This document shows, one piece after another, positions 1 to 21,705 of a stretch of 64,000 bases of DNA; positions within the stretch are counted from its first letter, which is position 1, and each line of letters opens with the position of its first letter. Location: assembly GCA_028641055.1 (NCBI GenBank), contig CM054061.1, positions 53,982,081-54,046,080 of the forward strand, written 5' to 3'. Source of the DNA: Alopecurus myosuroides. Lineage: Eukaryota; Streptophyta; Magnoliopsida; Poales; Poaceae. The notes below the pieces were generated by a model. It had not been told where the DNA came from. It ran no database searches and saw only the letters and a program-made list of their open reading frames with translations. A program made the position numbers and the translations under genes.

Positions 1-58
1 TCCTGATTATACGACAATTACTTACGCCGACCAACTTGACATAGATATTTTTATATAG

Positions 59-385
59 GAGGTAGTGGAACCGGAAATGCCAATCGACCCTATTGTTGAG
101 AAGTTATACTTAGTTGAACAAGAAAATATTGGCTTGAAAGAAAGATTGAAAAAAACTGAAGAAAGGTTGGAAAAAACTGAAAGAGAGAAGATGACCTTGG
201 AAAAGGTTCTTGCCGGTGTCGTCGATAGTCACAAGAGCGAGATGGACGCAATGCGCCTGAAGATTAGAAAGATTAGGAAATATGCAATTAGTAAAGAGGC
301 TTGGTATCATTATGTCGTCGGGTCAATTGTTACCTTTGTTGCGATTTTGATCGCATTTGTTGTTGTTTTTAAATGCATTAATTAG
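59..385 (+). CDS. Last exon of coiled-coil protein with C-terminal membrane segment (partial)
   Basis: An open frame runs from a likely splice acceptor (TATATAG at 52-58) to a TAG at 383-385. There is no ATG until position 77, so I read it as the 3' exon of a gene that begins left of the window. The protein is a heptad-rich, highly charged helix (repeats of LKKTEERLEKTE type, roughly residues 20-75) followed by a basic stretch and a hydrophobic segment (about 20 residues rich in V, I, A and F) near the C-terminus, which would anchor it in a membrane. It lies about 160 bp upstream of the transposase, in the same orientation, inside CACTA element 1. I do not recognise a catalytic domain. Element 2 has no counterpart. 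It could also be a truncated capture of a host gene. Confidence 0.5.
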   Translation, partial: EVVEPEMPIDPIVEKLYLVEQENIGLKERLKKTEERLEKTEREKMTLEKVLAGVVDSHKSEMDAMRLKIRKIRKYAISKEAWYHYVVGSIVTFVAILIAFVVVFKCIN

Positions 386-545
386 AGAGAGTTTTTATGG
401 ATGGTTTCAGTGTGTATTTTTCTGAGAACTATATATGTATGGTCACTATACGCTAGTTTGGTATTAACGTGTGATGAACTTTTTGTATTAATTAATTAAT
501 TTAGTCATGATGATTTAGCATAATGGTTGTTGATAAATTTATATA

Positions 546-3500
546 ATGCAGATAAACCGGCAATGGATGTACAGTGATCAACGTCGTCCCGAATTCCTTA
601 ATGGCATGCATAGTTTTCTCAATGTGGTTGAGAAAAACAGGCAGAATGGATTTATTTTTTGTCCATGTAAAAAATGCCAGAATAAGAGGAATTTCCCTAG
701 CTCAAGAACCATACACACCCACCTGTTGCAAGAAGGCTTCATGCCTAGTTATTTTTGTTGGACCAAGCACGGAGAAAGAGGGGTTATAATGGAAGACAAT
801 GAAGAAGAAGAGGATAATGATAATTATCCTATGTTCGATGAACACGGTGATACTGAAATGGGGGAAGACGAGCCTGAACTTGAGGACATTGTTGATGAGT
901 CTGATGATGATCTTCGTCAGGTCATTCGTGAAGAACAGATAAACTGCGCAAGTGAAAACGAGAGGTTGAAGTTGGAGCGCATGTTAGAAGACCACAAAAA
1001 ATTGTTGTACCCAACTTGCGAAGATGGCCAGAAAAAACTGGGCACCACACTTGAATTGCTGCAATGGAAGGCAGAGAATGGATTATCTGACAAGGGATTT
1101 GAAAACCTGCTGAAAATAATGAAGAAGATGCTTCCAAGAAATAACGTGCTGCCCTGCAGTACATACGAAGCAAAGAAGGTTGTCTGCCCTCTAGGATTGG
1201 AAGTGCATAAGATACATGCATGCATCAATGACTGCATCCTCTACCGCGGCCAGCACGAGAATTTAAATGCCTGCTCGGTATGCGGTGCATTTTGGTATAA
1301 GATCAGGCGAGATGACCCTGGTGATGTTGAGGGCGACGATCGCCCCAGGAAGAGGGTTCCTGCCAAGGTGATGTGGCATGCTCCTATAATACCACGGTTG
1401 AAACGTTTGTTCCGAAACAAAGAGCATGCCAAGTTGTTGCGATGGCACAAAGAAGACCGTAAGGAGGACGATATGCTGAGACACCCCGCTGATGGGTCGC
1501 AGTGGAGAAACATCGACGATAAGTACGAGGACTTTGCACATGACGCAAGAAACTTAAGGTTTGGTCTGAGTACAGATGGCCTGAATCCATTTGGGGAGCA
1601 GAGTAGCAGTCATAGCACCTGGCTCGTGACTCTATGTATCTATAACCTTCCTCCTTGGTTATGCATGAAGCGTAAGTTCATTATGATGCCAGTGCTTATC
1701 CCAGGCCCGTCGCAACCCGGCAACAACATTGATGTGTACCTGAGGCCACTGGTTGATGAACTTTTAGAGTTGTGGGCTGACGAAGGTGTACGTGTGTGGG
1801 ACGAGTACAAACAAGAGGAATTTGACCTACGAGGGTTGCTGTTTGTTACCATCAATGATTGGCCCGCTCTTAGTAACATCTCAGGACAGTCAAACAAGGG
1901 ATACAGCGCATGCACACACTGTTTAGGCGAGACAAAAAGTATACATATAGGCAAGAATGTGTACCCGGGGCATCGTCGATTTCTTCCAGACAGGCATCCC
2001 GTAAGAAAGAAAGGAAAGCATTTCAAAGGCGAGGCAGATCCACGGAGGAAGCCAACCCTCCCTAAAGGTACTGATATATATGACATGGTCAAAGATATAA
2101 AAGTAATCTTTGGAAAGGGTCCTGGCGCACAATCTGTTCCAAATGACGCCGACAACCACGTAGCCATGTGGAAGAAGAAATCTATATTCTGGGAACTACC
2201 CTATTGGAAATTCCTAGAGGTTCGCTCTGCGATCGACGTGATGCACGTGACGAAAAATATTTGCGTGAACCTGCTAAACTTATTGGGCGTGCATGGGAAG
2301 AAGTCGAGAGATACACCAAAAGCACGGCTGCACCACCAACGTATGCACGAACGAGACGACCTGATGAATCCAGAGAATTTCAAAGGTCCTGCCAGCTACG
2401 CTCTTACCAAGGAAGAGAAGGAGATCTTTTTCCAAGTCCTGAGTAGTATCAAGGTCCCGTCTGGCTAATCGTCGAACATAAAAGGAATACTAAACCTGGA
2501 AGAGAAAAAGTTCCAAAACCTTAAGTCTCATGACTGCCACGTGATCATGAACCAGTTACTTCCGATTGCATTGAGGGGGCTTCTGCCAGAAAACGTGCGA
2601 GTACCCATTGTGAAGCTATGTGCATTCCTCAACGCAATTTCTCAGAAGGCAATCGATCCAGCAACTCTACCAAGTTTACAGAAGGACGTGGTCCAATGTC
2701 TTGTCAGCTTCGAGTTGGTGTTCCCACCAACCTTTTTCAATATTATGACGCACCTCATAGTTCACCTAGTCCAAGAGATTTCCGTTCTCGGTCCTGTATT
2801 CTTACACAATATGTTCCCCTTTGAGAGGTTCATGGGAGTCTTGAAGAATTATGTTAGAAACCGTGCTAGACCAGAAGGAAGCATGGTCAAGGGCTATGGA
2901 ACAGAGGAGGTCATTGAGTTTTGTGTTGACTTTATTCCTGACCTGAACCCGATCGGGGTTACTCAGTCGCGCCATGAGGGGAGACTGCGTGGAAAAGGCA
3001 CGCTAGGAAAGAAATCAACAACATGTATGGACGAGCAATCTTTCAGTCAAGCACACTACACAGTTCTAGTTAATTCCAGCTTGGCGGCTCCATATATCCA
3101 GGAACACACGGATATTTTACGCTCGGAATATCCGGAGCAACCTGAAGATTTCATTGCTAAAGAACACGCGAAGACTTTCGGAGGTTGGTTGCAAAGACGT
3201 CTGATTAATGACAACATTGTTGAAGATGAGCTATACTTGTTGGCCAAGCAACCATCTTCGACTGTATTGACCTTTAAAGGGTACGAGATAAATGGTAACA
3301 TATTTTACACGGCAGAACAAGATAAAAAGAGCACCAACCAAAACAGTGGCGTCCGGTTTGATGCAAAAGACGACAACGGGCAAAGGGTCACATACTATGG
3401 TTACATAGAGCAGATATGGGAACTTGACTATGGACCTTCCTTTAAGGTCCCTTTGTTCTGGTGCAAATGGTTCAACCTGTCAGGCGTGAAGGTAGACCCG

Positions 3501-3869
3501 AAGTACGGAATGACAACAGTGGATCAGAAGAATCTTGGGTACGGCAATGATCAATTCGTCCTAGCCAATGATGTGGCTCAAGTTTTCTATGTGAAGGACA
3601 TGTCTAGCAGACCGAGAAAAACAAAAGATAAGGAAACGAATACATCAGACGATGAGCCAAGGCGCCACATAGTTCTTTCAGGGAAAAGAAACATCGTGGG
3701 AGTCGAGGACAAGACAGACATGTCAGAAGATTACATTAAATTTGATGAAATTCCTCCCTTCAAAGTAAAAGATGATCCTAGCATTCAGTTAAATGATGAA
3801 GATGTTCCATGGTTACGGCGCAATCAGAAGAAAGGCAAGAAGAAAAATAGAAACGGATCGTCCCTTTAG
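546..3869 (+). pseudogene. tnp2-type CACTA transposase, one internal stop
   Basis: The frame is open except for a TAA at 2466-2468, where element 2 has a phenylalanine codon (TTC) at the matching point (SGFSSN context). Without that stop it would be about 1,107 codons, close to the intact 1,114-aa copy in element 2. Domain order from sequence reading: N-terminal transposase-associated domain (starting NRQWMYS, with Cys pairs CPCKKC), acidic linker (residues about 80-130), Transposase_21/tnp2 core (motifs GLSTDGLNPFG, DVMHVTKNICVNLL), a DUF4218-like block (HLVQEISVLGPVFLHNMFPF) and a DUF4216-like block (TYYGYIEQIWELDY). The family cuts CACTA ends. The start is uncertain: an acceptor-like TATAATGCAG immediately precedes codon 3, suggesting a 5' intron; element 2 reads ATG where this copy has ATA. 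Confidence 0.85.
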
Positions 3870-3899
3870 TACCGGTTGGGGACACCAACCGGGACTAAA
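3865..3899. repeat. TTTAGTACCGG foldback repeat
   Basis: Perfect or near-perfect inverted repeat with arms TTTAGT(A/C)CCGGTTGG and CCAACCGGGACTAAA around a short GGACA spacer. It sits immediately after the transposase stop codon and matches the unit at 21710-21745 that precedes the promoter-AP2 module in element 2. Motifs of this type are the usual subterminal repeats (likely transposase-protein binding sites) of this CACTA group. Confidence 0.7.
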
Positions 3900-3902
3900 T
3901 GG

Positions 3903-4115
3903 GTTAGGGTTTCGTTTGGACCAATCAGATAGAATCACAAGGATCGTGTGTTTGTTTCCAGCTGTTGTGAGCCGTTCGATCAGGGCTACGGTGTGTTTCT
4001 TTCGAGCTGTTGTGAGCCGTTGGATGAGATGTTTCTTAACCGTTGGATCAAAACCCTAGCTCAACACTTTGTGAGCCAGAGGACCCTATATATAGCCCAG
4101 CTTCATACACCGTTC
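3903..4115 (+). promoter_or_regulatory. Pol II promoter of hairpin/AP2 module (copy P1)
   Basis: The stretch holds a CCAAT motif (GGACCAATCAGATA), two copies of a roughly 43-bp tandem repeat (core GAGCTGTTGTGAGCCGTT) and a strong TATA box, CCTATATATAGCCC, at 4085-4096. The expected start site is near 4115-4125, just before the first hairpin repeat. The same arrangement recurs at 5500-5735 and at 21750-21990, always followed by hairpin sequence and, in two cases, by an AP2 gene. In element 1 it points the same way as the transposase; in element 2 it points toward the transposase 3' end. Confidence 0.55.
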
Positions 4116-4735
4116 AGTTCATCTCCCAAATACAAAACATCCGGATTCGCCAGCATACGCCCCGCTGTGCATTTGGTATGCATATATGCACTCAGTAGCC
4201 ACTGCGGGGTTGTATACTGGCGATACCGTTTGTTTTGTTCTACACCCTCCTTTAAGGTTTGATACATCATATACTCAGTTCATCGAGCAAATACAAAACA
4301 TCCGGATTCGCCATCATACGTCCGGCCGTGCATTTGGTATGCATATATGCACCCAGTAGCCACGGTCGGGCTGTATGATGGCGATACCGTCTGTTTTGTT
4401 CCACACCCCCCTTAAGGTTTGATACATCATATATTCAGTTCATCGAGCAAATACAAAACATCCGGATTCGCCATCATACGTCCGGCCGTGCATTTGGTAT
4501 GCATATATGCACCCAGTAGCCACGGTCGGGCTGTATGATGGCGATACCGTCTGTTTTGTTCCACACCCCCCTTAAGGTTTGATACATCATATACTCAGTT
4601 CATCGAGCAAATACAAAACATCCGGATTCGCCGTCATACGTCCAGCCGTGCATTTGGTATGCATATATGCACCCAGTAGCTAGCCACGGTTGGGCTGTAT
4701 GACGGCGATACCGTTTGTTTTGTTCTACACCCCCC
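4112..4735 (+). repeat. Array of four ~160-bp repeats, each with a long hairpin
   Basis: Four tandem units with the shared block TCCGGATTCGCC at 4140, 4301, 4461 and 4621 (periods 161, 160, 160). Each unit contains a stem of about 20 bp: unit 1 at 4150-4220, unit 2 at 4311-4381, unit 3 at 4471-4541, unit 4 at 4631-4705. The left arm has the form CCATCATAC..CCGTG and the right arm CACGG..GTATGATGG, closing a loop that holds a second small palindrome, TGCATATATGCA. Between units the arms vary in complementary fashion (for example CCAT/ATGG, CCGT/ACGG, CCAG/CTGG). A fifth, half unit with only the right arm occurs at 5728-5830, and two complete units are at 22036-22265 in element 2. The array lies immediately downstream of a TATA box. 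Confidence 0.85.
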
Positions 4736-4739
4736 TTTG

Positions 4740-5060
4740 GAAACAGAAAGAAGAAGAAAAAGAAATGTGCGCCCCCCTGTACAGGCCTTTAGGACCGGTT
4801 GCCGTTAACAACCGGTGCTAAAGACCCTTTAGCACCGGTTGTTAACCGCAACCGGTACCAAGAAAGGCAAGAGTAAGATTGTGACGACCGGTTGTCACAG
4901 AGGCAGACAGAAGAAGTCACGGTATGGCAGTCACGTATTCAACATCAACCAAGAAAGGCAAGCGTAAGATTGTGACGAAAAGTTGACAGAGGGAAATACT
5001 CGCGATATATGTATGTACTTTTTAAAAGTGAGAAACAAAGTACCAGCGGGCTAGTATACC
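4740..5060. repeat. Foldbacks and short direct repeat between duplicated blocks
   Basis: No gene. Two TTTAGCACCGG-type foldbacks lie head to tail at about 4787-4856. A 27-bp phrase (AAGAAAGGCAAG..AAGATTGTGACGA) occurs twice, near 4859 and 4951, and resembles the extreme 3' end of the transposase coding sequence, so this may be a third, decayed transposase tail. The stretch occupies the place that an AP2 gene would hold if the preceding block were a full copy of the block at 5320-6935. Confidence 0.45.
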
Positions 5061-5319
5061 AATCGCTAAATCAATCTACATGTATGGTATCTCGCTAAAT
5101 TAATCTATATATATGTATCCACGATATATATGCTCGATGTATCACTTGCGCTCTCACTTCTCGTTGCCTTACTCATTATCCACCCTAACTTACCACAGGC
5201 GCATAGACCGGAATATGCGCCTGGGGTAACATTACCGCAGGCGCACAGACAAAATATGCGCCTGGGCTAAGATCTATACCACAGGCGCATACTTTGTAAT
5301 ATGCGCCTGGGGTAAGTTA
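5061..5319. repeat. Direct repeat X1 with three GCGCC mini-foldbacks
   Basis: About 260 bp nearly identical to 6675-6935. It starts with CAATCGCTAAATCAATC and an ATATATAT-rich section. It ends with three successive inverted repeats of about 40 bp with arms of the form TTACC(A/G)CAGGCGCA and TGCGCCTGGGGTAA (near 5193-5231, 5232-5270, 5276-5315). These arms are unlike the TTTAGTCCCGG foldbacks elsewhere in the element and may be subterminal repeats from another CACTA lineage. Confidence 0.7.
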
Positions 5320-5463
5320 TCAGATTACATTAAATTTGATGAAATTCCTCCCTTCAAAGTCAAAGATGATCCTAGCATTCAGTTAAATGATGAAGATGTT
5401 CCATGGTTACGGCGCAATCAGAAGAAAGGCAAGAAGAAAAATAGAAACGGATCGTCCCTTTAG
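5320..5463 (+). pseudogene. Duplicated 3' tail of the tnp2 transposase
   Basis: This repeats the last 140 bp or so of the transposase (3729-3869) with very few differences, including its final codons and stop, and continues into the same foldback and promoter sequence. There is no upstream coding region: it abuts direct repeat X1 at a junction with short microhomology (CAGATTACAT versus GAAGATTACAT). It is therefore the start of a segmental duplication rather than an independent gene. Confidence 0.85.
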
Positions 5464-5830
5464 TACCGGTTGGGGACACCAACAGGGACTAAATGGGTTA
5501 GGGTTTCGTTTGGACCAATCAGATAGAATCACACGGATCGTGTGTTTGTTTCAACCGCTTGTGAGTCGTTGGATCCGGGGTGTGTTTCTTTCCAGCTGTT
5601 GTGAGCCGTTCGATCAGGGCTACGGTGTGTTTCTTTCGAACTGTTGTGAGCCGTTGGATGAGATGTTTCTTAACCGTTGGATCAAAACTCTAGCTCAACA
5701 CTTTGTGAGCCAGAGGACCCTATATATGCACCCCGTAGCCACGGTCGGGCTGTATGATGGCGATACCGTCTGTTTTGTTCCACACCCCCCTTAAGGTTTG
5801 ATACATCATATACTCAGTGCATTTGTTCTA
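5464..5830 (+). promoter_or_regulatory. Promoter of AP2 gene (copy P2) with half hairpin unit
   Basis: Second copy of the promoter block: foldback, CCAAT motif, three GAGCCGTT-type repeats and TATA sequence CCCTATATATGCACCCC at 5718-5733. Just after the TATA box the sequence jumps into the right half of a hairpin unit (GTAGCCACGGTCGGG), so the left hairpin arms have been deleted here. The AP2 start codon follows at 5970, leaving a leader of roughly 200 bases. This is the promoter most likely to drive the AP2 gene of element 1. Confidence 0.5.
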
Positions 5831-5969
5831 CACCCCCCCTTTAACACATCCATCCATGTTATGGTGGCTCGTGGCACGGGAGTTGTGACGCGTGGCCTGG
5901 AGGGCGCGGTATAAACTGTCGCGCCTCGAGCGCTTCTTCTTCATCCCTCTGCACCGTCGCGCTTCCACC

Positions 5970-6620
5970 ATGCCTCCGAGGAGGAACAGCACCACCGGTT
6001 TCCGCGGCGTCCGAGCACGGCAGAACGGAATGTTCAGCGCAGATATCCGCTGGGGGGATGACCGCATCCCCCTCGGCACCTTTGCGACGGCGGCAGAGGC
6101 AGCCCGCGCCTGGGACGCGGCGGCCTGGCGCCTCAACCGCCCGCGGTCGCTGATGAACTTCAACGACTGCCACACAGTCTGGGAAGCGGAGGCCAGGGCG
6201 ACGAAGCCACAGATCATCACTGCCGCCGACCACCTCCACCTCCGCCACCGCGCGTTTCAGGGCCTAGTCGACGCCAGGGAAGACCGCGTCGTCCGCGAGT
6301 ATTACCGGAACAACCCGGGGGAGGAGAGCGCCGACGAGGAGCTCTGGCAGACCCGCGCGGCTCAGCGGGCGGAGCGCCGCCTCGAACGCCACCTCGCGTT
6401 AGATGCGGCTCGGGAGGCGAGGACGAAGGCGCTGCAAGAGCTTCGTCGGGCCGACCACGCCGGCGAAGTCTGGGCCTCCGACGATCCGAGGTGGGGGCCT
6501 ATCTCGGACATACCATCATGCACCTCCGATGATGACGAGGAGGTCACCGACGAGTTCGGCGACGATGATGACCCGGAGGAGGTCACCGACGAGTTCCCCG
6601 ACGACGACGGCGAGGAGTAG
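5970..6620 (+). CDS. AP2/ERF-domain protein carried by CACTA element 1
   Basis: Intact 216-aa single-exon ORF. Residues about 10-64 form one AP2/ERF DNA-binding domain: GFRGVRARQNG, then SADIRW, LGTFATAAEAARAWDAAAWR and LMNF, matching the three beta strands and the amphipathic helix of the family. The rest is a charged helical region rich in Arg/Glu (residues 90-165) and an acidic tail with two EEVTDEF repeats that could act as an activation segment. I start at ATG 5970, which has a CACCATG context; an upstream in-frame ATG at 5892 lies in the probable leader. A polyadenylation-like AATAAA follows the stop by about 25 bp. The copy in element 2 (22514-23164) has the same length and about 94% identity. 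A nuclear regulatory role is inferred from the domain only. Confidence 0.8.
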   Translation: MPPRRNSTTGFRGVRARQNGMFSADIRWGDDRIPLGTFATAAEAARAWDAAAWRLNRPRSLMNFNDCHTVWEAEARATKPQIITAADHLHLRHRAFQGLVDAREDRVVREYYRNNPGEESADEELWQTRAAQRAERRLERHLALDAAREARTKALQELRRADHAGEVWASDDPRWGPISDIPSCTSDDDEEVTDEFGDDDDPEEVTDEFPDDDGEE

Positions 6621-6674
6621 TGTTCGTCTGTTTTCTCTTTTTAATAAAATAATTTGTATTCCCGCGACACTGCG

Positions 6675-6935
6675 GCAATCGCTAAATCAATCTACATGTA
6701 TGGTATCTCGCTAAATCAATCTATATATATGTATCCACGATATATATGCTCGATGTATCACTTGCGCTCTCACTTTTCCTTGCCTTACTCATAACCCACT
6801 CTAACTTACCACAGGCGCATAAACAGCAAAATGCGCCTAGGGTAACTTTACCGCAGGCGCACAGTCAAGAAATGCGCCTGGGATAAGGGCTTTACCGCAG
6901 GCGCATGTTGTGTACGGTGCGCCTGGGGTAAGTGA
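6675..6935. repeat. Direct repeat X2 with three GCGCC mini-foldbacks
   Basis: Second copy of the 260-bp block at 5061-5319, directly after the AP2 gene. Its three inverted repeats (near 6806-6845, 6846-6885, 6890-6930) keep the CAGGCGCA/TGCGCCTG arms although the short loops differ from those of X1. The two copies bracket the transposase tail, promoter and AP2 gene, which is best explained by tandem duplication of a block ending in X. Confidence 0.7.
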
Positions 6936-7165
6936 TCACATATACAGAAACAGTAGTTTTTCTGTTTTGTTTTCTTGATGTGTTTTTGTTTGTTTGTTTT
7001 GAAATGTGTGTTTGACATAATATAGAAATAGTATAGCTAGGAATTAATATAGAAATAATATCCATTACATAATAATATATACATTACATGATAATATATA
7101 CATTACATACTAATATATCCATTACATGCATATATCGAACACAAGATGCGGTACACAAACAACAT
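6936..7165. other. AT-rich spacer, no gene seen
   Basis: Low-complexity AT-rich DNA with a run of TTTTGTTT and four spaced repeats of the form CATTACATAATAATATA. It would be the 3' flank of both the AP2 gene and the exonuclease gene, which converge on it. Confidence 0.4.
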
Positions 7166-7879
7166 CTATGGATCCGTCGAGTAGAAGCGGAACAACTCGT
7201 AGGAGACGTATGCATCTATGGCTGCATACTTGATGTTGGTCCAGTCCAGTGGGTTCTTCTCCCACAACCAGTGATTCTTCGAGGGGAAATCAGTCTTCAT
7301 GGTTTCGTAGCCCTCGTGGATGAAGGCAGTTGCCATGAGAGCCATCCCGGTCTTCGGCCTGTTCAAATCAGCAAAATAGATAAGATCCTGAAGATCAATG
7401 TAGTGATCTTCAGGTATCACAATACCCAAGCGCATCAACTTCGGACGGTATTGCGTGTTGTCAACGCTGCAAAAGTCATACCCCTTGTTGACAAGAAAAT
7501 CAACAAGTGCCGGAGAATGCTTTGAACTATTGCAACAACAAAAATTTGATACGTGTACGTGTTAGATATATTGCAACACATGTATTCTTCACATGCAACA
7601 AACAAATCGAAGATGCAAGATTGTACGTGTGCGTTACCTTGACCATTGGAAGACCAAAACGGCCTCCTTGAATGCAATCTGGATGACTGCAACATTCCGT
7701 TTATCCGCCGTATACTCTAAATCAAGCCCGAAAAACCGGTGTTCTTCGGGAGAGGAGAAATACAGATCGGTCAAATACCCAAGAGCACCGGGGAGCTCCT
7801 CGCAATTGTTGGTGTAGAACACGTCGAGACTTTTGCCGCATGGTGTGGCCACATCATATCTCTTAGAAACTTCAGCCAT
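7166..7879 (-). CDS. Werner-like DEDDy 3'-5' exonuclease, two exons, captured by CACTA
   Basis: Two exons, complement(7638-7879) and complement(7166-7526), separated by a 111-bp intron with a GTAACG donor and a TTGCAATAG acceptor, give an uninterrupted 200-aa protein. It is a DnaQ-like exonuclease domain of the Werner-protein type: motif Exo I GLDLEYT (Asp53, Glu55), a probable Exo II Asp103 in CSVDN, and Exo III YAAIDAY (Tyr181, Asp185), the YxxxD pattern of the DEDDy class. Such enzymes remove nucleotides from DNA or RNA 3' ends. The protein is only the exonuclease domain, with no helicase part. It is antisense to the transposon genes, and retains an intron, so it looks like a genomic gene capture. 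ATG 7879 has a good context (CACCATGG). Substrate is unknown. Confidence 0.8.
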
Positions 7880-8008
7880 GGTGCTTAGTGGAGGAAGATC
7901 AAGAGAGGAAGAAGAAAAGACAGAGGAAGAAGAGAAGAAACAGAGACTCGCGATCGGGCCGGTGCGCACTGTAGCAATAAAACTGCCGCGCGCGGGAGGC
8001 GGGCAGTT

Positions 8009-8187
8009 TGTACTAAGACCTTTAGCACCGGTTGCTAACACAAACCGGTGCTAAAGACCTATAGTGGGCGCGCAGTTTGGGTGTGGCCCCAACTACAGGC
8101 CTTTAGCACCGGTTTGTGTTAGCAACCGGTGCTAAAGACCCTTTAGCACCGGTTGTTAACACAAACCGGTGCTAAAGGCCTGTAGTG
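8009..8187. repeat. Cluster of TTTAGCACCGG foldbacks including a 97-bp palindrome
   Basis: A foldback with arms TTTAGCACCGGTTGC / AACCGGTGCTAAAG lies at 8010-8060. It is followed at 8091-8187 by two more foldbacks back to back. The latter begins AACTACAGGC and ends GCCTGTAGTG, so read inward from both sides it has CACTA-like termini (one base off on the left), and even the flanking CCCC and GGGG are complementary. It may be a pair of CACTA ends joined after loss of everything between them. Confidence 0.55.
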
Positions 8188-8263
8188 GGGATATATCTCT
8201 AGGACTTCTGAAAATTTGGCTCATTTCCCTTCGCGCGTCTTCTCCTATACCACGTACGGCGAA

Positions 8264-9012
8264 GCCCTGCTCCGGCGCCGCGCCTCCGTCCGCCTCGTCG
8301 CCGTCCGCCTCGCCTCCGTCCGCCGCGCCTCCGTCCGCTCTCTGTCTCCGTCGCCGTCGATCCCCCGCGCGGCCCCGCGTCCGTCGCGCCTCCGCGGTCG
8401 CCGTCCGCCTCCGTCGCGCCGTCGCCGTCCGCCTCCGTCGCGCCTCCGTCTCGCCTCCGCCTCCGCCGCCCCGCCTCTCGCCCCTCGATCGCCGTCGCCG
8501 GCCTAGCTAGGTAAGTTTTATTTCGGTTTTTTTCAATTTTGTTTTAGTGTTAGAATTTTTAGAGTTAGTGTTAGTGTTTAGTGTTAGAAATTTGTAGAGT
8601 TAGTGTTAGATTGTTTTTAGAGTTAGTGTTAGTGTTAGAAATTTTTAGATTTAGTGTTAGATTTTTTTAGAGTTATTAGTGTTAGTGTTAGAATTTAGTG
8701 TTAGAAATTTTTAGAGTTAGTGTTAGATTTTTTTAGTGCTTTATTTTGTTTTTACAATTTTGTTTAGTGTTAGAATTTTTGTGTTAGAATGTTGTGTTAG
8801 AAAATTTCACTAAGTTAGTGTTAGAAAATTTCAGAAAGTTAGAATATATAATTTCAGTAAGTTAAAAATTTTCACTAAGTTACCATATTGTTCCTGTTTA
8901 ACTTTCATCTTATTTCTGTTATATTTCTCAATTTACTATTTTTTACTAAGTTAGAAACACTAAGGTATTTTACTTAATTATGGAATATTTACTTAGTTCG
9001 GGCAGGTTTTTA
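8264..9012 (+). other. GC-rich leader exon and repetitive intron upstream of 9017 ORF
   Basis: 8264-8510 is very GC-rich, with tandem variants of CGCCTCCGTCCGC; it reads as proline/arginine in every frame and is unlikely to be coding. It ends in a good splice donor, GCTAGGTAAGTTTT near 8511. The following 500 bp are T-rich with many GTTAGTGTTAG repeats, ending at GCAGGTTTTTAG just before the ATG at 9017. This fits a 5'-untranslated exon and an intron of the next gene, although no start site is apparent. Confidence 0.4.
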
Positions 9013-9016
9013 GTTC

Positions 9017-9400
9017 ATGTCTTTGTTGGACCCGCCGGGGGATGTCCGGGACTGGGCCCCGCCAGGCTGGCATTGGGAGCTCCTTAGTACCGGGGCACGC
9101 GGCTTGGTGAGAAATCCGGGTGACGTGGTCGACCCGGATATTCTTTGGTGGCCATCGCGTGGGCCACGCTCGGTGCGGAGAGAGTCGGCCCCTGAGGAGG
9201 TGGTACAACAGCGTATCAGGGAGGAGGACGAGCACGTCCGTCGCTACATGTACTTGCTCGATAGCCAGTATAGCAGCAGTTGGTCGATTATTCGGAGGGT
9301 TCCTTACCACGTGAGCTATGACCCTATGAGGGTTCCTTATCTATGGATGCGTAGCACCCGTGACTCAGCACCCCGCGGCTTAGGACCCGGTCGGAGTTAA
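9017..9400 (+). CDS. Small unknown protein (127 aa) in CACTA element 1
   Basis: The ORF starts MSLLDPPGDVRDW and is rich in Trp, Arg and Tyr, with a mid-protein acidic helix (APEEVVQQRIREEDEHVRR) and a Tyr/Ser-rich C-terminal half. It has no signal peptide, membrane segment or motif I recognise. A plausible acceptor (TTTTTAG) lies four bases upstream of the ATG and a spliced leader precedes it. It sits between the exonuclease gene and the second transposon gene, in the orientation of the latter. Element 2 carries a different unknown ORF (21083-21628) at the comparable place, so each element has its own passenger there. I infer a real gene from codon composition and splice context only. Confidence 0.45.
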   Translation: MSLLDPPGDVRDWAPPGWHWELLSTGARGLVRNPGDVVDPDILWWPSRGPRSVRRESAPEEVVQQRIREEDEHVRRYMYLLDSQYSSSWSIIRRVPYHVSYDPMRVPYLWMRSTRDSAPRGLGPGRS

Positions 9401-9641
9401 TTATTTTGAGAGATGTCACGATCGAGACTATGTATAAGTGATATTATTCGATCGTGATGTATTAGGGTTTAAAAAATCAACCCGAGCTATGTAACTCTTG
9501 GTGTGTCCAGAACTATTATTTCATTAATATGTCCAGAACTATTATTTTATTACTGTCCGATGAAATAATTTCGCCAAGTGCCCGATGAAAATTTCGCTAA
9601 GTGTTCTTCATTTTATAAATTTTACTAGCAGGTGTTGAGCT

Positions 9642-12600
9642 ATGGATCCCCAAGAACCTGCACATGATCCGCACGCCGATAAACTCGCGGGAATGGGTGA
9701 GGCGGAGAAGGAAAGATTAATGTGCGAGATGATTTTTAATAATGCAACGGCCATATATCGTGATGACGACGGTGGACAAGCGTTTAGCAATCAATTTTTG
9801 AACGACTCCGGCGACGGAGATCAGAATATAGAAGATGTAGTAGATGATGACGACGACAACGTCGAGGATGAAGAAGTGCCCTCCAGAACAAACTCTGCCA
9901 ATGTATATCTCAAGTCACTGTTCACGCAACAATTAATTTGTATTGCACTTACTAACGAATCATTATTTTCCCGTTTAGGCGCCCTCTGGAACAGCTAGCG
10001 CAAGTACTGAGACAAAGTCCAAACGAGGCCCGGCCGCAAGGTTGAAAGATACCGCAAGGTTCTCGATCGATACAGTTGCTGCTGATGGCAAACCACTGCA
10101 GCCCCCAGAAACTTATCGCAAATTCGTAAATCAGTGCGGAGTTGTTGTAAGAGACCTGGTCCCGATCAACTTAATAGAATGGAATAAGCCGAAGACCGGG
10201 GCCAACGTTGGAGCTAGTTATGTCGATGAAAGATTGAAAAAAATTCTTTGCGAAACGCTATGGCTAAATTTCAGCGTAGCGAGCGATAAGAAGAAGAAAG
10301 TCGAGCAGTGGGCTTTGAAGAAGATGGCCACACAATTCCAGAGGTGGAAGAAAGAACTGTGGAAGAAATATAAGGACGAAGATCCAGTTTTCACTGGGAA
10401 CCTAGTGAAGATAAGAGACGCTTGGGATGATTTTAAGGCGTACAAGAAATCGGGTGTCTTTGCATCCCGATTGGCCACAAATTCGGAGAATGCGAAGAAG
10501 AAGAAATATCACCATATTTTGGGGTCAGGTGGCTACATGACTGCCCTGCCTAGGTGGCGAAGCTATGAAGCTGCGCTTGTGAAAAGAGGTATCATTCCAC
10601 AGACACATGACTGGCCCGATAGGTCCAAGTTCTGGTTGTTCGCGCATGGGGCAACGTTGGACGCTGAGACTGGGATGATTGTTGCTCAGGGACCATGGTC
10701 GGAAAAAATAACAAAAGTCGTAGCAGACCTAGAGAAGGCAATAGAAGCTGTTCGAAAAGAAACTTTTGTTCCTGATAGAGAGAACGACGAGCTGACGAGG
10801 GCACTCGGGAACCCCGAAAAGTGGGGACGAACACGAGGCTTTGGAGCGGATACCCCGTGGAGCCAAGGGTTTGCAGCGGACATTGCCACTTACAGAAGCC
10901 GTGATAGAAGCAAGAAAAAGACGAGTGGACGGATATCGACATTAGAACAAAAGGTGGATTTTCTCTTGAAGAAAGGGGGACACCCTCTACCTGACACTGA
11001 AGAGGAGGTAGAACATCGTCCTGCACCTGATCAGCTGCAAATAGAAGACAATCATGTAGCAGATGCCGTCCCATCTCAGCATAGAAGCAGCGTTGGTTCC
11101 ACGCACATGCAGCTAGAAGACGGTCGTGCAGTCGAACCGTCGGCGCCTCACTACCCCGTGGATGATATCACGGAGAAGACAAACTGTGAGATACATATGC
11201 CAATGGGGAACATATCCTTCAGGGTGGCGTCAGGCTATGCTTTACCGAATCAACCTGGAGCAACCTACCATGGTGGTCAGATTCCAGCATCCCATGCTCG
11301 TGTCGGGTTGTCAACAATTACGCTGGGATGCCATTCAATTGAGCTCCATATTCCTAGAGGTGAAGGCGAGAAGACACTGGGAGAAATGGAGCTTGGTATC
11401 ATATTGTGGAATAAGAAACACATCGTGTTTCCTAACTCGGCGCCAAGGCCACCGACTCCTCCAGGTGCAAATGCACCATATATACCTCCATCAATTACTG
11501 AATGTTGCACCACATGTAAGCTTATTTTTAATAGTTTTTTCACTTTCGTACAGAGAATGCACGACCTCCAAGTCCACCCCCCAACGAACCTCCAAGTCCA
11601 CCCCCCAACGAACCTCCAAGTCCACCCACAACGAAGATTGGGAGCCCGAGGCCGAGGGTCCATCGCCCGTGCACTCCCGTGAGCCGACGGATGCGCCCAC
11701 TACGGGTACGGCAAAGCGGAAGCTGAAGTTCAGAAGAAACAGAACTCCTCCCAAGAAGAGACCAAGGAAATCTAAGAAAGTCGAGACTCCGCCGAAGTTA
11801 CCAGGCCTGATGACTCCGGAGGAACTAAGCGATGTCGTGAAAGCCAAAACCAGCGCATGGTTCACACAGTTTCCCCGGAAGCCCCCTCCAGACACCTGGA
11901 AGGAAACTCTGAAGGACATCCCAAAGTGGAAAATTGAGCGGACCATCGACAACTTATATTATCCTGCACCGCCGCCACCGCCGCCCCTTTCAGACTATGA
12001 ACGGTACATTGAGAAGACGCACACCGCACAGAAGAAGCATACGGAGGAGATGAAGCAGGCGGAGCAGACGAAATGCGGGAAACAAGTTTCCCAGCTCGGA
12101 CAACAAGAAGCACGGTCAATTGCCCCGCTCAAGGTCTTATCTGACCAGGCTTCAGTGTCCGGTCCACGCATGGGCGACGTGGGTTACGCTATTGCTGATG
12201 TGGTATATACATACAAGCCCGGGCACCCTCTGGTCGAAAATCCTATTGATCTAACAACCCAACTACGGAGTTTACATGATTGGTACTTGGAGGCCGCAAG
12301 GCAGGAGAGAGACTGTATCATGGCTCAAGTTCAGGATCAACACTACTTCGGAGATTACGGTGTCGAGCTTGGGTTCGATGATTTCTTCCAGATGTACAAT
12401 CAACGTGCCCTCGACAAGTCTATCCTCAGCTGCTACTGTTTGTAAGTGATTTATTTGTGTAATTTAATTATTTAGTTAAGCTCGCGTTCGTTGCCCGTAT
12501 AATTATCACTCACGACATTCTTTTTGTACGCTACTATGCAGAATGAAGATTCGTGAATGCAGACTGGCAGGAATCTGGGACTTTGGGTTCATTGACCCGT

Positions 12601-13517
12601 ATTCGTATCATCAAAACACAGTAGAAAGGTTCAACAAGGATACACCGGATGATTTGCTAAGGTTTTTGAAGCGACAAAGTACCAAAAAAGAAATACTTTG
12701 GCCCTACGGATTCAACTGAGCGTTACTGTCTTGTAGACATTCCATTTTGCTTACCTGATGTTAAGTGTAATTGATGAGTATGCATGACTGCGTGTGTACA
12801 CGTGCGCAGCGGCCACTTCATATTGTTCATCATTAGAATCGATAAAGGACAAGTTGAAGTCTGGGACTCGTTAACCTGGGGCGCTGACACATGGAAGACC
12901 GCGCGTCAGATGCTTCAAAAGTATATATATATCGGCCTCTTTCGTTCATCGGCCTCTTTTTCGTTCATTCCCTGATATCAAGTAAGTAATAATTAACTCT
13001 TCTATTCATTTTTCTTTTGTCGCCCAGGGTTTGGCAAATGTTCATCAAGGAAGAACCCGGTACATGGGCAGACATTCTCCACTTTCAGATTAACAAAGTA
13101 AGTAGTACTACGTACCCTGATTTAAATACCATTACCATTCTCTTGATTATTATTAATTTGACTGAATTATGTTTCTCGTATATAGAAAGTCCCGTAACAA
13201 CCACAGGGAACTGATTATTGTGGATACTACGTTTGCGAGTTTATTCACAGGACGATCAATGAGAAATCCCGTACTAGGAGAAATCTAGAGGTACGTAACC
13301 GGATCTTCACAACTTTATTTATGTTGCCATTAATTATGTTTAGTTTTGTTCATAACTTAATTGTTTTCATCTACTTCTTTTCAAGATGGCACGAAAGCGG
13401 GCGCAGCTCAAACCAATCGACCGTTGCAAGGCTATTGCAGAGGAATTGGCAGGATTTCTTCTCACGCAAGTCATAGCAGAAGACGGAGAATTTTTCCATC
13501 CTATGAACCAATTATAG
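9642..13517 (+). pseudogene. Second CACTA gene: Transposase_24-like protein with Ulp1 protease domain, broken
   Basis: Exons by splice sites and frame: 9642-9902, 9979-11464, 11554-12441, 12542-12715, 12810-12920, 13028-13097, 13186-13290, 13386-13517. The N-terminus is acidic. Exon 2 holds a plant CACTA second-protein domain (NQCGVVVRDLVPI to ALGNPEKWGRTRGF), then a proline-rich linker. Exons 4-8 form a Ulp1-type cysteine protease (C48): His in GHFILF, Asp in VWDS, Cys in DYCGYYVCEF. Damage: a frameshift in the proline-rich repeats near 11620-11630; a donor of exon 4 changed from GT to CT at 12716; and a TAA at 13195-13197 just before the catalytic Cys. The equivalent gene in element 2 is complement(15532-19546). 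The intact protein would bind element ends and may cleave SUMO-like conjugates; both roles are inferred from family. Confidence 0.75.
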
Positions 13518-13619
13518 CCAGCTCCATTCTCTATGCAAGTATACAGCTATTCAAAACGAACTTCAGATTATGTAATTCTCGGTCGATTACTTCGTGTTAC
13601 ATGTATATATATATGTACT

Positions 13620-13860
13620 TTTATTTGGTGCATCAACATTTAACCGCAAACACGGAATCGGAAACACTTAACCGCAAACACGGAATCGGTGTTTCCGGAT
13701 ACGTATTTCCGATTACGTGTTTTCTGAAAATACGTATTGCCTTCTTTAGAAACGGAAACACGTAAACGAAAACCCTGAAAATACGGAACACGCCCTAAAC
13801 CCTAAACCCTAAACCCTAAATACGGAATTGGAAACCCTGAAAAGAAAAGAAAAAAAAAGA
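13620..13860. repeat. Subterminal motif cluster and telomere-like repeats
   Basis: Short motifs AACACGGAATCGGAAACAC and their complements (GTGTTTCCG, TACGTATTTCCG) recur in both orientations at 13640-13790, followed by about four units of CCCTAAA at 13792-13822 and purine-rich sequence. It lies between the last exon of the second gene and the terminal foldbacks. Subterminal arrays of this kind are usually binding sites for CACTA proteins; the telomere-like run is most likely local coincidence or slippage. Confidence 0.5.
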
Positions 13861-13871
13861 GAAAAAAAAAG

Positions 13872-14078
13872 CTTTAGGACCGGTTGGTGTTACCAACCGG
13901 TTCTAAAGGTCCTCCGCCTGCGCGCGCTCTTCGGCGCCCACGTGGAGGCCTTTAGAACCGGTTGGTGACTGACCGGTTCTAAAGGGGGGGCCTTTAGTCC
14001 CGGATATGTAGCACCGGTTTTGTATCCGAGTCCAAAGGCCCTTACAAACCGGTGCTACTGGCCTGTTCTCCACCAGTG
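13872..14078. repeat. Right terminal foldbacks and terminus of CACTA element 1
   Basis: Foldbacks with arms TTTAGGACCGGTTGGTG and TTTAGAACCGGTTGG, then a last imperfect foldback (TTTAGTCCCGG to ACCGGTGCTACTGG), and the terminus ending CTCCACCAGTG at 14078. The inward reading CACTGGTGGAGAACAGGCC aligns with the 19-bp terminus of element 2 with a few differences, which places both elements in one family. Confidence 0.8.
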
Positions 14079-15004: not shown

Positions 15005-15240
15005 CACTGGTAGAAAATAGGCCTATAGTCCCGGTTCGCAAGGGCCAGTAGTCCCGGCCGCGCAACCGGGACTAGCTATGCGCGACTAAAGACCCCCCCC
15101 CCCCCTATAGTCCCGCCATTTACGGACCGGGACTAAAGGCCCGTCCACGTGGGCGCCAGGGATCCGTCGCGGCGGAGGCCCTTTAGTCCCGGTTCTTGTG
15201 GTCAACCGGGACTGAAAACCTGCGCAGGTTTAGGGTTTTA
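15005..15240. repeat. Left terminal foldbacks of CACTA element 2
   Basis: After the terminus come three foldbacks built from CCTATAGTCCCGGTT, CCCGGCCGCGCAACCGGGAC and CCCTTTAGTCCCGGTTC with their complements, including a C-run at 15098-15105. Such paired CCCGG motifs at both ends are the presumed docking sites for the element proteins. Confidence 0.75.
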
Positions 15241-15331
15241 GGCCCCCTAAACCTGGTTCCTTTTTAATTTGTTTTGTTTTATTTCTTTTATATTTTATTT
15301 TGTGTTTTATTTTAATTTTGATGAAGTTTCA

Positions 15332-15333
<2 letters not shown>

Positions 15334-15366
<33 letters not shown>
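15334..15366. repeat. (TA)n microsatellite
   Basis: About 33 bp of alternating TA in the 3' flank of the second gene, followed by a second shorter run near 15389. Another (TA)n run of about 50 bp is at 16388-16434, inside intron 3 of that gene. Confidence 0.8.
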
Positions 15367-15368
<2 letters not shown>

Positions 15369-15531
15369 ACGATACTATATACATGCATATATATATATAT
15401 GAAATTTCAAACAAGGAGAATTCAATAGGAATATATAATATATATTCAATATCGGGTGACCATATATACAACCTCGAACAAGTTTTCATATTACACAATT
15501 AAGATGGATGACCATACATAAATTCGAACAA

Positions 15532-16385
15532 TTAAGATGGCTTATGCGGATAATAGTCATCGTCGGTGGACGCATGGTACTCTCCTTCCTTATCGATGAC
15601 ATGCCTAAGGAAAAATCCTGCTATTTCCTCTTGAATTGGTCGGAAGCGAGCTTCTGGAGTAAGCGCCCTCCGCAAGTTATTGAGACCCCTCCGCGTGGTC
15701 TCGTCCTTCTTCCTCTCAGAGATTTCTTTCCGTATGTTCTCACAGACATAGTATCCACATAGACCGGTCCCCGGTGGCTGCTTATCCACACCTTTGACCA
15801 CATTTTTAAATTTTAGCTCATGTTTGAATCCACCGACATGTCCAAGTGAGAACTGTCTCCAAACTCTATATTGCAAATAAAATTAAATGAACAAGGGAGT
15901 TATTAGCTTAGGAAATGAACAAAAGAGACTGATCGATATAGAGCGCAAATGATTGAAAAATAATTACCTTTGCATCATTTTTCTCATGTTGATCCAAAGA
16001 TCTGTATTTGAATTCATAGAGTCAAAGATCAAAACTATGGAGTTCTGAAGATCAATTTTTAGCAGAATCCAGTGGAACCTGCGGACACGTTAGATGCAGA
16101 GTCATGCATAACTTATCGATTAGACATACCATGCATGGAGTAAACAAAAGAGAATGGGAACATGAGAGAAACACTCACCCAAAAAGGTAAGGAAATAGAA
16201 TATATCTTTTGGATTCATGCTTTTTTAAAAATTTGTACAAGTCTTTCTCCATGTCTTTGGGGTGACGTTCTAACATAGTTCCATTAATGATTTGTGGGTC
16301 AATGAACCCAACATCATGGATGAGTCTTATTTTGCATTCCCAAATCTTCAATCTGCATAATAGCGTACGCAACAATATAGTTAGG

Positions 16386-16437
<52 letters not shown>

Positions 16438-19400
16438 TAGGCAATGAAGAACGAGATGAGGTAGAAATAAATCACTTACAGAACGTAGCAACTCAGGATA
16501 GATTTGTCGAGCTCACGCAGATTGAACAGCTGGAACAATTCACTCATCTCAACTGTTACAGAGTAATTTTTAGTGTGATGCTCCTCTGTATAATCCACAT
16601 ACACAAATTCTTTGTCGGTCCATGTTATGAAATGTTTGTACCAACGTAGCAGAGCTTGCATTAGTGGTGGTAGATCCTTTTCCTTCGCAGGCTCGACGAG
16701 AGGCCCTTTCTTCTCATATTGTAATCCTACCTCAGCCACTGGCGCATCGTCTAGGCCTAAAAAGAGACGAAGAGATATACCGGCCTCGGACGCATTTTGC
16801 ATGGCAGTAGGTACAGTCAATCCCATTTCTGCCACAGCATTTATGACCTCGGGGTCCTGTTCCGGAGCGGCTTTCACTATGAGCGGGGGGGTCGATTGTT
16901 TACTCTGCATCCCGAGCTGGGCAACTTGTTTCCCGCTTTTTTTCATTTTTCCTTTTCCTTTCTCCTCCTCCACTACTTTTGCTTTCTCTTTCTCCTCCTC
17001 CATTATTCCTGCTTGCTTACGAAGTTCAATATCATAGTCTTTAGGCAAATTCTTCACGGCTTGGGACACTGTCGACAAAAAACCCGTAGCCCACTTGTCT
17101 ACAGTCGGAGGGAATACTTCCTTGGGCTCAGGCTCCTTTAGCGCCTTCAGTCGGCCCTTCCATTTGTCAACGTCAGCCTTCGTGGCCAATTTGGTTTCAG
17201 CATCACTAAGTTCCCAAGGCCTTGGGGGGAGAGGCTTCAGTGATGGCTCCGGTACCCGTGTGGTCTTAGCTACATAAGGCTCCGGGTTAATAGACCAAGA
17301 GCAGGTTCCCTTGCTGTCCGCCTGCCTCTGTTTCTTCGCTGGAGGAGGAATGGAGGGCGACGTCTGCTTATCCTTCGGAGGAGGAATGGGGGGCGACGAC
17401 TGATTATCCTCCGGAGGAGGAATGGGGGGAGACGGCTGCTTTTCCTCCGGAGGAGGAATGGGGGAGACGGCTGCTTTTCCTCCGGAGGAGGAATCGTGGG
17501 CGACGGCTGCTTAACCGCCGGAGGAGGAATCGTGGGCGACGGCATCTTACCCGCCGGAGATTGTGGATCGGGGGACGGCGTCGAATGGCGTGAAGGAGGC
17601 GTAGGTGAACCAGCACCACCACCACCACCACCACCAGCACCTGCACCATCGGAGGGGGGGTGGACTTGTTAGCCTTGGCGTCTCTCCTGGAAACACTATG
17701 TACTTCTTTTTCCATAGAATGAACTGGCGCTTGACATCTCCAAGTCTTCTCTCCCCTTCGGGTGTAGTTATGTCAATCTCCAGGTCCTCAAACGCTTGGA
17801 CTATGTCTTCCACCGTGACACGAGCATAGCCATATGGAATGGGGTTGTTGTGATGGAGTGCTCCAGGTGTAGATGGTAAAGCACTGCCGGTAGCTACCTT
17901 CATGGAAATGTTCCCCACGGGATAATGCAGATCACATTCTTTCATCTCCTTTACATCATCCACGGGGTAGTGAGGCTCCGGTGCACGACTCTCGATCATC
18001 GGTGCATTAGCACCTGCAGTCGGGGCCTCCGTGGAAGCCACGCTGCTTCTCCGCTGATGCTGGCTTCCGAGATCCGCTGCATGTTCTTCATGCGGCCCTG
18101 CAGCCGCCGCTTTTTATTTCTCAAGTATTCCCGCCACGATCTTCTTCAACTCATTAAATTCCGCTGCAAGATTCGACAGTTGATCTGCAGCCCGGTCCGT
18201 ACCTCTCTTACGGCTTCTGTAACAGTACGGGTCACCCTCCTGGGAAAACCCTACTTTCCACGGCAATCTGCCTTTGCCTCGTACATGTCCTCCGTGTTCA
18301 GGATTCCCGAGGGCATGGGTCAGTTGGTCTCTCTCTCTGTTGAACGTGATCACGCCCTGTTGAGCTAAGGTCATTGCGTCAACAAGGTCTTTTGTGGGAG
18401 CAAACTTTTTCTGCCGGTGAACACACTCCCCTGTCTCCGGGTCTAGCGATCCCCCATGCCCGTACCACCACATTTTGGCTCTTTCGCCCCATCCCTCTGT
18501 ACCTAGACGGATTCCTCTTGCCCTCAGGCCGTCCTCCATTGCCTGCCACTTAGGCGCCGAAACGCGGTATCCTCCTGGCCCCATAACATGATGGTACTGT
18601 TTCTTTTCCGCATTAGCCTTATTTTTTGCCGACATTTCCTTGAAATGCTCCGATTTATGTTGCGTCACAAATTCTGTCCAATCATCTCTCAGTTTCTCAT
18701 GTTGTCCAGTGAAAATCGGAGTCTTGCCCTTGCTGACATATTCACGGAACAATTTTTTCTTGAAGTTCCGGAATGCTTCGGCCATCTTCTGAAAAGCGAA
18801 CTCTTTGACTATCCTCCTCCTCTCACGTCCACCCGGAACGTCCTCACCGAATTCATCTTTTTTGTTGTATTCCGGAGGTAGAATGAAATGTGCAATAAGC
18901 TTTCTAAACATAATCTTTTTCGTTCTCTTGTCGACATAAGTGAAACCAACACGTGCTTTCTTTGGCTCCTTCCATTCCTGGACGGTGATCGGGACGGTGT
19001 CTCTAACAATGACTCCGCATTGGTTGATAAACTTTGTGGTGTGCTGTAGGGGCTTGCCGATTTCACTGACTGATTCGATGGTATATGTTTCTCCATCTTT
19101 CATCGACTTGGATTTGCCACGCTTTGTCATACTAGATCCGGCCGAGGGCTAAAATAAGAAAGAGAGTCGCGCGCGTTAGTGCATATGTATTCACATTTCA
19201 GTAAGTTTGTATCACGAGAGTCCCAATGTATATATATATATACCTCGCCGGAGGTGGTTGTTCTTTGCAATTGGAGATCGTCGTTTGTCGACGGTTGACC
19301 TCCGTCATCAATGTCCATTCCTTCAGCTCCTTGATCATCGACAATGTCCGTTCCTTCACCTGTTTCATCATCGACAATGTCCGTTCCTCCACGTTCTTGA

Positions 19401-19546
19401 TCATCAAGGTTCAGATAAGAAGAGACTACATCGTCTTGTTGCTCATCTTCTGGGCCCGGCACATAATGGGTCTGGTTGGCTATCATGTCGTATATAATAC
19501 CTTCAGCCTCCTGCTCAGTATACGGCAAGGCTCCATTGTCCGCCAT
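15532..19546 (-). pseudogene. Second CACTA gene with Ulp1 protease domain, element 2 copy, broken
   Basis: Exons on the minus strand: 19546-19244, 19148-16480, 16352-16179, 16078-15968, 15865-15532; all junctions are GT/AG and keep frame. Exon 1 is acidic with three repeats of a T-DIVDD phrase. Exon 2 carries the Transposase_24-like region (NQCGVIVRDTVPI to THALGNPEHGG), then a proline-rich linker and charged helix. The last exons hold the Ulp1 triad: His in FHWILL, Asp in IFDS, Cys in GLCGYYVCE. Damage: TAA at 18114-18116, a frameshift in the seven-G run 17654-17660, and a second one near 17460 (five G where the neighbouring repeat has six) that restores the frame. The protease triad itself is intact, unlike in element 1, where a stop precedes the Cys. 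Confidence 0.8.
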
Positions 19547-20190: not shown

Positions 20191-20194
20191 CGCG

Positions 20195-20400: not shown

Positions 20401-20506
20401 CCCTAAACAGATCCTCCGGCGGGGGCCACGGCCGTCGTCGTCGTTTAATTCCGATCGTCGTGCACGGTCCTCCAGAGATCCTCAAGAACGCACGGGTGGG
20501 CACCTA

Positions 20507-21700: not shown

Positions 21701-21705
21701 AAACA

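Follow-up and report, generated by a model that had tools for sequence, protein, structure and literature searches.

Two tandem arrays of hairpins lie in the 64,000-nucleotide stretch of Alopecurus myosuroides DNA analysed here (C5:53982081-54046080; called the window below, with coordinates counted from its first letter). They raise the question of what such arrays produce, and why the two arms of their stems change together. The window was analysed together with searches of the 3.57-Gb genome assembly. The reading we favour, to which we give a probability of about 0.75, is that CACTA transposons transport the array as cargo and that it serves as a polycistronic MIR9666 gene, the products of which would cut the RPB1 mRNA of RNA polymerase II (Pol II) at its CTD heptads. 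What we report from published work refers to the accessible passages of the papers cited.

Hairpin units and the MIR9666 family

The earlier note on this DNA had counted six complete hairpin units, four in one array and two in another, and all six were found on the plus strand. Array 1 holds unit 1 (4132-4238; star 4149-4169, guide 4202-4223), which is of a diverged class termed V and scores 67.8 bits with the Rfam model considered below, followed by unit 2 (4293-4399; star 4310-4330, guide 4363-4384, CGGTCGGGCTGTATGATGGCGA; 76.7 bits), unit 3 (4453-4559; star 4470-4490, guide 4523-4544; 76.7 bits) and unit 4 (4613-4723; star 4630-4650, guide 4687-4708; 76.4 bits). Array 2 holds unit 5 (22018-22123; star 22035-22055, guide 22087-22108; 72 bits) and unit 6 (22178-22283; star 22195-22215, guide 22247-22268; 70.6 bits). 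Because units 2 and 3 have the same sequence over the hairpin, the six units comprise five distinct sequences. A truncated seventh hairpin, retaining the guide arm only (5742-5763), occurs on the same strand with a second copy of the promoter region at 5455-5822. At 5722-5730 of this truncated array, a TATATA microhomology marks the junction of the TATA region with a hairpin loop.

The five distinct plus-strand sequences fold with energies of -52.7 to -64.3 kcal/mol (z of -6.5 to -10.5), and none of 200 shuffles folded as well. The minus strand also folds well (z of -6.9 to -8.6), with unit 1 folding better as minus than as plus. In the best fold of a transcript carrying all four units of array 1, unit 2 pairs with unit 3. 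Both observations count against the favoured reading. A stem of about 20 bp had been described; the stem is real but longer, comprising 34 pairs interrupted by two internal loops and one 1-nt bulge, with eight more pairs on the loop side. None of the five distinct sequences has lost the bulge or the outer internal loop, and each contains G-U pairs. The inner internal loop is 2x2 in four of the sequences and 1x1 in unit 6. Likewise, the statement that only two mismatches occur, both in unit 1, holds for the main stem, but there is an additional G-G mismatch near the loop of unit 6.

All six units match the Rfam model of the MIR9666 precursor (RF03465) over its full length, with E-values from 4.4e-13 to 1.3e-15. 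The scores of 67.8-76.7 bits lie under the Rfam gathering cut-off of 88 bits, and they are obtained on the plus strand, compared with 38.4-44.6 bits on the minus strand. The suggestion that the array could be a small-RNA source of the transposon is thus supported, since the match is to a microRNA (miRNA) family and is far better on the plus strand. Nothing came to light in favour of a packaging RNA, another possibility raised in the earlier note. A single letter separates each guide of units 2-6 from tae-miR9666a or tae-miR9666b (that of unit 6 from tae-miR9666a), and the guide of unit 1 is six letters off. The name miR2003, under which the family also appears, is said to go back to Wei et al. 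2009. The wheat sequences are printed in PMC4029127 as tae-miR9666a CGGUAGGGCUGUAUGAUGGCGA, b CGGUUGGGCUGUAUGAUGGCGA and c GCCAUCAUACGUCCAACCGUG, and the available part of PMC3398953 gives the tae-miR9666b sequence as tae-miR2003. In 41 sources, namely 40 genome loci and the window, exact tae-miR9666b occurred 28 times, and there was no exact occurrence of tae-miR9666a or c in the same 41 sources. Exact 22-mer scans of viral contigs and GTDB genomes gave no match, as expected from collections that hold no plants.

Plant miRNAs are recognized by a miRNA/star duplex with 2-nt 3' overhangs, released from a hairpin of less than 300 nt with few unpaired bases. The guide and star of unit 2 form such a duplex: the 3' overhang measures 2 nt at either end, and the guide has a single unpaired base where the star has none. 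The hairpins of the window measure 106-111 nt. The single unpaired guide base accounts for a guide of 22 nt and a star of 21 nt. Judged by their sequence, the co-varying hairpins appear to be precursors of the described grass microRNA family miR9666/miR2003.

In the literature, miR9666/miR2003 is reported from wheat and barley and is developmentally regulated in grain. It has been detected by Northern analysis in developing wheat grain and embryo as a 22-nt miRNA (PMC4048363), and wheat small-RNA reads have been reported for it (PMC4029127). The accessible text of PMC4591353 calls miR9666 wheat-specific. In the window, a carboxylesterase-like gene at 31788-32780 matches Alopecurus aequalis at 94%, Avena at 89%, Lolium at 84% and Triticum at 83%. 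Since the source thus lies near Alopecurus, in the Poeae, the MIR9666 family would extend beyond wheat and barley.

CACTA elements, promoter motif and cassette

Both arrays reside in transposed CACTA elements. Element 1, on the plus strand, spans 14,970 bp; it covers window positions 1-14078 and has its left end at C5:53981189, 892 bp to the left of the window. It is flanked by the target site duplication (TSD) AAC/AAC, and its terminal inverted repeats (TIRs) are alike at 15 of 19 positions. Element 2, on the minus strand, is complete within the window (15005-27330; 12,326 bp), with TIRs at 15005-15023 and 27312-27330 that are alike at 18 of 19 positions and the TSD TCG on both sides. Two more array-bearing copies, on contig C1, have the TSDs GGT and GGC. 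All four elements checked, whose ends were located by reading the sequence, therefore have CACTN TIRs and matching 3-bp TSDs, each different (TCG, AAC, GGT, GGC).

The elements encode tnp2-type transposases. That of element 1 (537-3869, plus strand) consists of two open frames with one in-frame stop between them and contains the domains Transposase_21, Transpos_assoc, DUF4218 and DUF4216. In element 2 (23429-26818, minus strand) it is a single open frame of 1129 aa. Transposase_21 was detected with E-values of 9.9e-84 and 8.4e-92 in the two elements, together with DUF4218 and DUF4216. Inverted repeats of CCTTTAGCACCGGTT at 8020-8190 and 4780-4861 match MIR5387 below the cut-off, and 8021-8136 also matches MIR1319 below the cut-off; these resemble repeats of CACTA type more than miRNA genes. 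Elsewhere in the window, frames on the minus strand at 51935-57274 resemble, by eye, a Gypsy-type LTR retrotransposon with its gag, protease and reverse transcriptase-integrase.

Each array is preceded on the plus strand by a presumed promoter region, at 3861-4113 for array 1, with the TATA motif CTATATATAG at 4086, and at 21706-21999 for array 2, with a TATA motif at 21972. A first look at the genome turned up 989 candidates. Forty of these were scored, and the matches listed were all on contig C1. Before counting, we excluded one locus (L003) that overlaps another (L002), model hits that did not span from position 5 or less to position 103 or more, and the lower-scoring strand at each place; loci L042-L046 were excluded from the counts of exact guides and guide variants in the 41 sources. 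The 40 loci hold 145 hairpin units that span the model, or 151 including the six of the window. In 39 of the 40, TATATATA starts 45 nt upstream of the first hairpin.

The order of units follows a common plan. With the classes written V, C, T and T', the 40 C1 arrays read V C T (10 arrays), V C T' T (9), V C T' (7), V C C T (5) or V C C T' T (4), or have one of five other orders, and a V unit comes first in 38. In all eight loci retrieved with 1.5-kb flanks (seven separate sites, as L002 and L003 overlap), the 3' end of tnp2 lies directly before the promoter and array, and it is about 98% identical to that of element 1. The 40 sampled loci are one young, near-identical copy family.

The arrays travel with an AP2/ERF-like open reading frame (ORF), located at 5970-6620 in element 1 and 22514-23164 in element 2, both on the plus strand. 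The Pfam AP2 model misses both ORFs even at an E-value of 10, and several homologues of the element 2 ORF carry PF00847. The earlier note had placed the array of element 2 in the leader of an AP2 gene, a reading that we dropped: each ORF has its own TATAAA motif, at about 5908-5910 and 22453-22455, so that a TATAAA box stands between array and ATG in both cases, and the four-unit array is also not adjacent to the AP2 gene. Read-through from the array into the AP2-like gene may occur.

The array, its promoter region and the AP2-like gene make up a cassette whose orientation relative to the transposase is inverted between element 1 and element 2. The transposases are 80.9% identical (893-3834 against 26408-23452), and the pieces of the cassette are about 90 to 96% identical (21706-23206 against 3861-6662), with 95.1% identity over 795 bases around the AP2-like gene. 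Both AP2-like ORFs are open, with a synonymous divergence of 0.106 and a dN/dS of 0.23; the transposase has a synonymous divergence of 0.43 to 0.55 and a dN/dS of about 0.37. Because the cassettes are closer to each other than the transposases are, the cassette appears to have passed between CACTA lineages after these had diverged.

CACTA elements capture genes, and MIR9666 might on that account be a host grass gene captured by the transposon, with the CACTA copies as mere passengers. The reports of a developmentally regulated miR9666 in wheat and barley grain would agree with such an origin, as would the AP2-like gene, with its dN/dS of 0.23, travelling alongside. The 145 units in 40 loci, with the TATA motif at a fixed distance in 39 of the 40, speak against it, within the limits of one family sampled on one contig. 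We consider this origin rather unlikely as the whole account; it overlaps with the reading of a CACTA-borne MIR9666 gene. Wheat data bear on residence in both directions. In the accessible part of PMC3398953, the miR2003 loci on wheat 1AL were judged not to be repeat-related, which counts against transposon residence. PMC5258749 reports miR9666 on all seven chromosomes of the wheat A genome and in the unplaced set, whereas it lists none for the B and D chromosomes; a spread of this kind would fit transposition in one lineage.

RNA polymerase II heptads as the putative target

For units 2, 3 and 5, the guide's complement read as codons is TCG CCA TCA TAC AGC CCN ACC, which spells SPSYSPT. Units 4 and 6 give the same peptide with one synonymous change, so that five of the six units read SPSYSPT; unit 1 reads SPVYNPA, which is not the consensus heptad and counts against the favoured reading. 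SPSYSPT is the C-terminal repeat of RPB1 (Pfam PF05001), found also in RPB1 of solved structures, and it occurs 13 times in Arabidopsis RPB1 and 11 times in that of the monocot Colocasia. Of 2051 matches, 120 were listed, and none of these could be recognized from its name as a grass RPB1. The chance that a random 22-mer would give this reading is 1.8e-7. At the level of codon reading, the guides of these five units are complementary to the RPB1 CTD heptad.

The differences among guides bear on the same point. In the set made up of units 2-6 and wheat miR9666a and b, three guide positions vary (5, 17 and 20), and each of them faces a third-codon position of the target (p = 0.023). All four letters occur at position 5 within the window, which would be permitted opposite a CCN proline codon. 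With unit 1 added, the share falls to four of eight variable sites (p = 0.18), and it is four of six (p = 0.054) for the SPSYSPT-class variants found in the wider sample. A preference for third-codon positions is weak and suggestive only. In 38 of the 40 scored arrays (L001-L041 without L003), the first unit belongs to the conserved, diverged V class with the guide CTGCGGGGTTGTATACTGGCGA, which reads SPVYNPA and may aim at a different target.

Wheat work has already connected this miRNA with Pol II. According to PMC4591353, transcript TC389301, which it calls a Pol II gene, has eight or more sites for miR9666, arranged in tandem or singly, and degradome data showed cleavage at four of them. 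Its authors suppose an insertion or duplication of repeats behind the multiple sites, and the CTD goes unnamed in the passages accessible to us. PMC7045451 and PMC11039868 also give as target either subunit 1 of RNA polymerase II or a subunit of RNA polymerase. Quite different wheat targets have been reported or predicted for miR9666 or miR2003 in other papers, namely PLATZ, endoglucanase, NPR5-like, glutenin and V-ATPase, and these speak against the favoured reading. When the whole window was searched for target sites of tae-miR9666a, b and c with up to five mismatches and no gaps, none was found outside the hairpins and the truncated hairpin, and self-targeting of the transposon was dropped for this reason.

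These observations can be joined in one proposed pathway. A TATA promoter within the CACTA element would drive a single transcript containing two to five hairpins about 160 nt apart. Each hairpin would yield a duplex with 2-nt 3' overhangs, in which the star has 21 nt and the guide 22 nt, the additional guide base being the conserved bulge. The guide would pair with the SPSYSPT codons of the RPB1 CTD and direct cleavage of the mRNA, and because the heptads repeat at 21-nt steps, one guide could bind many sites of one mRNA. In the window, the SPSYSPT-class guides differ from one another solely at synonymous codon positions of this target. The array thus appears to be part of a mobile element carrying a small RNA aimed at the transcription machinery of its host. 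That transcription, processing and cleavage take place in A. myosuroides, and that the transposon benefits from them, we infer.

A bolder version of this pathway makes the ordered cassette, passed between element lineages, a trans-acting agent that tunes host Pol II through its CTD codons, with guide versions for the synonymous heptads, 21-nt-phased siRNAs triggered by the 22-nt guide, and an arms race with synonymous sites of RPB1, of which the covariation in the stems would be the trace. The 21-nt phase of such secondary siRNAs would equal the 21-nt heptad repeat. We regard this version as doubtful.

The arrays could instead be an inverted-repeat by-product, a source of hairpin siRNAs that silence the element itself and have no host target, the name MIR9666 then reflecting such siRNAs in wheat. 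The apparently high copy number (989 first-look candidates, 40 scored) and the good folding of both strands would suit a source of this kind, and the wheat miRNAs miR1117 and miR1131 do match CACTA elements (PMC3398953). However, the exact 2-nt overhangs, the 22-nt guide with its 21-nt star, and a guide letter-for-letter equal to a wheat miRNA that Northern analysis shows as a 22-nt species in developing grain and embryo (PMC4048363) all point away from it, as do the single ground plan of unit order and TATA spacing and the pairing kept through two-sided changes. We find an origin as siRNA source improbable.

Stem covariation and comparison with known systems

Under the reading of a CACTA-borne MIR9666 gene, covariation of the stems would follow from the need of the star to remain paired with a guide that changes. 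The earlier note had reported that substitutions in the left arm are matched in the right arm, and the stems do co-vary. Across the five distinct sequences, 98.6% of cells pair, a value reached by none of 500 shuffles, and the covariation score is 0.138 against a shuffle mean of 0.080, again with no shuffle of 500 as high and with 0.054 for the best slid control. The series of five pair types at one stem position (C-G, G-C, A-T, T-G and T-A) was read again as described, as were G-C, G-T and A-T at its neighbour and AG/CT, AT/AT and GT/AC near the stem base. On weaker measures, three pairs have changes in both arms (15 of 500 shuffles do as well), and there are 12 further pair types (10 of 500). 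Among the 23 main-stem pairs, the left side varies in six, the right in eight and both in five (hypergeometric p = 0.009); without unit 1, the figures are three, three and two (p = 0.034). Since independent changes are few, the evidence for covariation from the window units alone is moderate.

When the window units are taken together with those of 27 genome loci, 105 units in all, some pairs occur in several states. Pair 21/87 is A-T in 82 units, G-C in 17 and G-T in six; pair 32/75 is A-T in 38, G-C in 37, C-G in 25, T-G in two, T-A in two and A-C in one. Other observations in this set run against covariation. By inspection, changes seen in a single copy are mostly one-sided. In the V class, pair 23/85 is broken in all 27 units (C-A), and pair 35/72 is broken in 17 (T-T) and G-T in 10. 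As the 40-locus sample represents one young copy family, it does not count as independent evidence of covariation.

Within the window, conservation of the guide is not clearly higher than that of the linker, a point against the favoured reading. Among units 2-6, variable columns number three of 22 in the guide, three of 21 in the star, one of 31 in the loop, three of 32 in the flanking stem and five of 31 in the linker; including unit 1, they number eight, six, two, three and nine, respectively.

It had been proposed that selection acts on RNA pairing rather than on a DNA palindrome, and the strand-biased Rfam score, the kept bulge and loop and the G-U pairs argue for this. That the arms match through gene conversion within a DNA palindrome is very unlikely: tandem units are prone to recombination, and truncated and variable arrays exist, but conversion would leave perfect Watson-Crick arms and so erase the bulge, the outer internal loop and the G-U pairs, all of which persist, and at pair 21/87 the G-T state (6 of 105 units) is an intermediate between A-T and G-C.

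The MIR9666 family is already known; we found no paper that reports its residence in CACTA elements or the CTD heptad reading. In the accessible passages of the open-licence literature there was no placement of miR9666/miR2003 in a CACTA element and no CTD heptad site for it. The available text of PMC5258749 mentions both miR9666 and CACTA, with no link between the two. Both terms also occur in PMC9723156, and PMC3398953, which calls miR2003 non-repetitive, contains miR2003 and CACTA. If true, our reading would account for the many sites that a wheat miRNA has on a single transcript, and it would be a warning that a miRNA common in wheat stress work may be the product of a transposon. The sole precedent we met for a transposon miRNA acting on a host silencing gene is rice miR820, and if a second CACTA lineage targets the Pol II tail in cool-season grasses, regulation of the host by a transposon becomes directly testable.

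Compared with MIR9666/tae-miR2003 (RF03465), the units described here share the hairpin architecture, the 22-nt 3p guide, the bulge and the position of the star. The exact tae-miR9666b occurs 28 times in the sampled genome loci, and Pol II is a reported target in wheat. They differ in forming tandem arrays of two to five inside CACTA elements, in a grass of Poeae type, and in an Rfam score below the gathering cut-off. The elements themselves are like other CACTA (En/Spm) transposons in their tnp2-type transposase, CACTN TIRs, 3-bp TSDs and CCGGTT-type repeats near the ends, and unlike them in their cargo, a cassette of miRNA array plus AP2-like gene that two lineages share in opposite orientation. 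The closest parallel we can offer is again rice miR820, described in PMC3459959 as a CACTA-borne miRNA against OsDRM2. In the accessible account, it too is a miRNA precursor inside a CACTA element, multiplied by transposition and giving a 22-nt species, and as in the proposal made here, it has a silencing gene of the host as target, with miRNA and target co-evolving. It differs in sequence and in its target, a DNA methyltransferase in place of the Pol II CTD heptads; the arrays described here are, moreover, tandem polycistrons with a TATA motif of their own and many possible sites per target mRNA.
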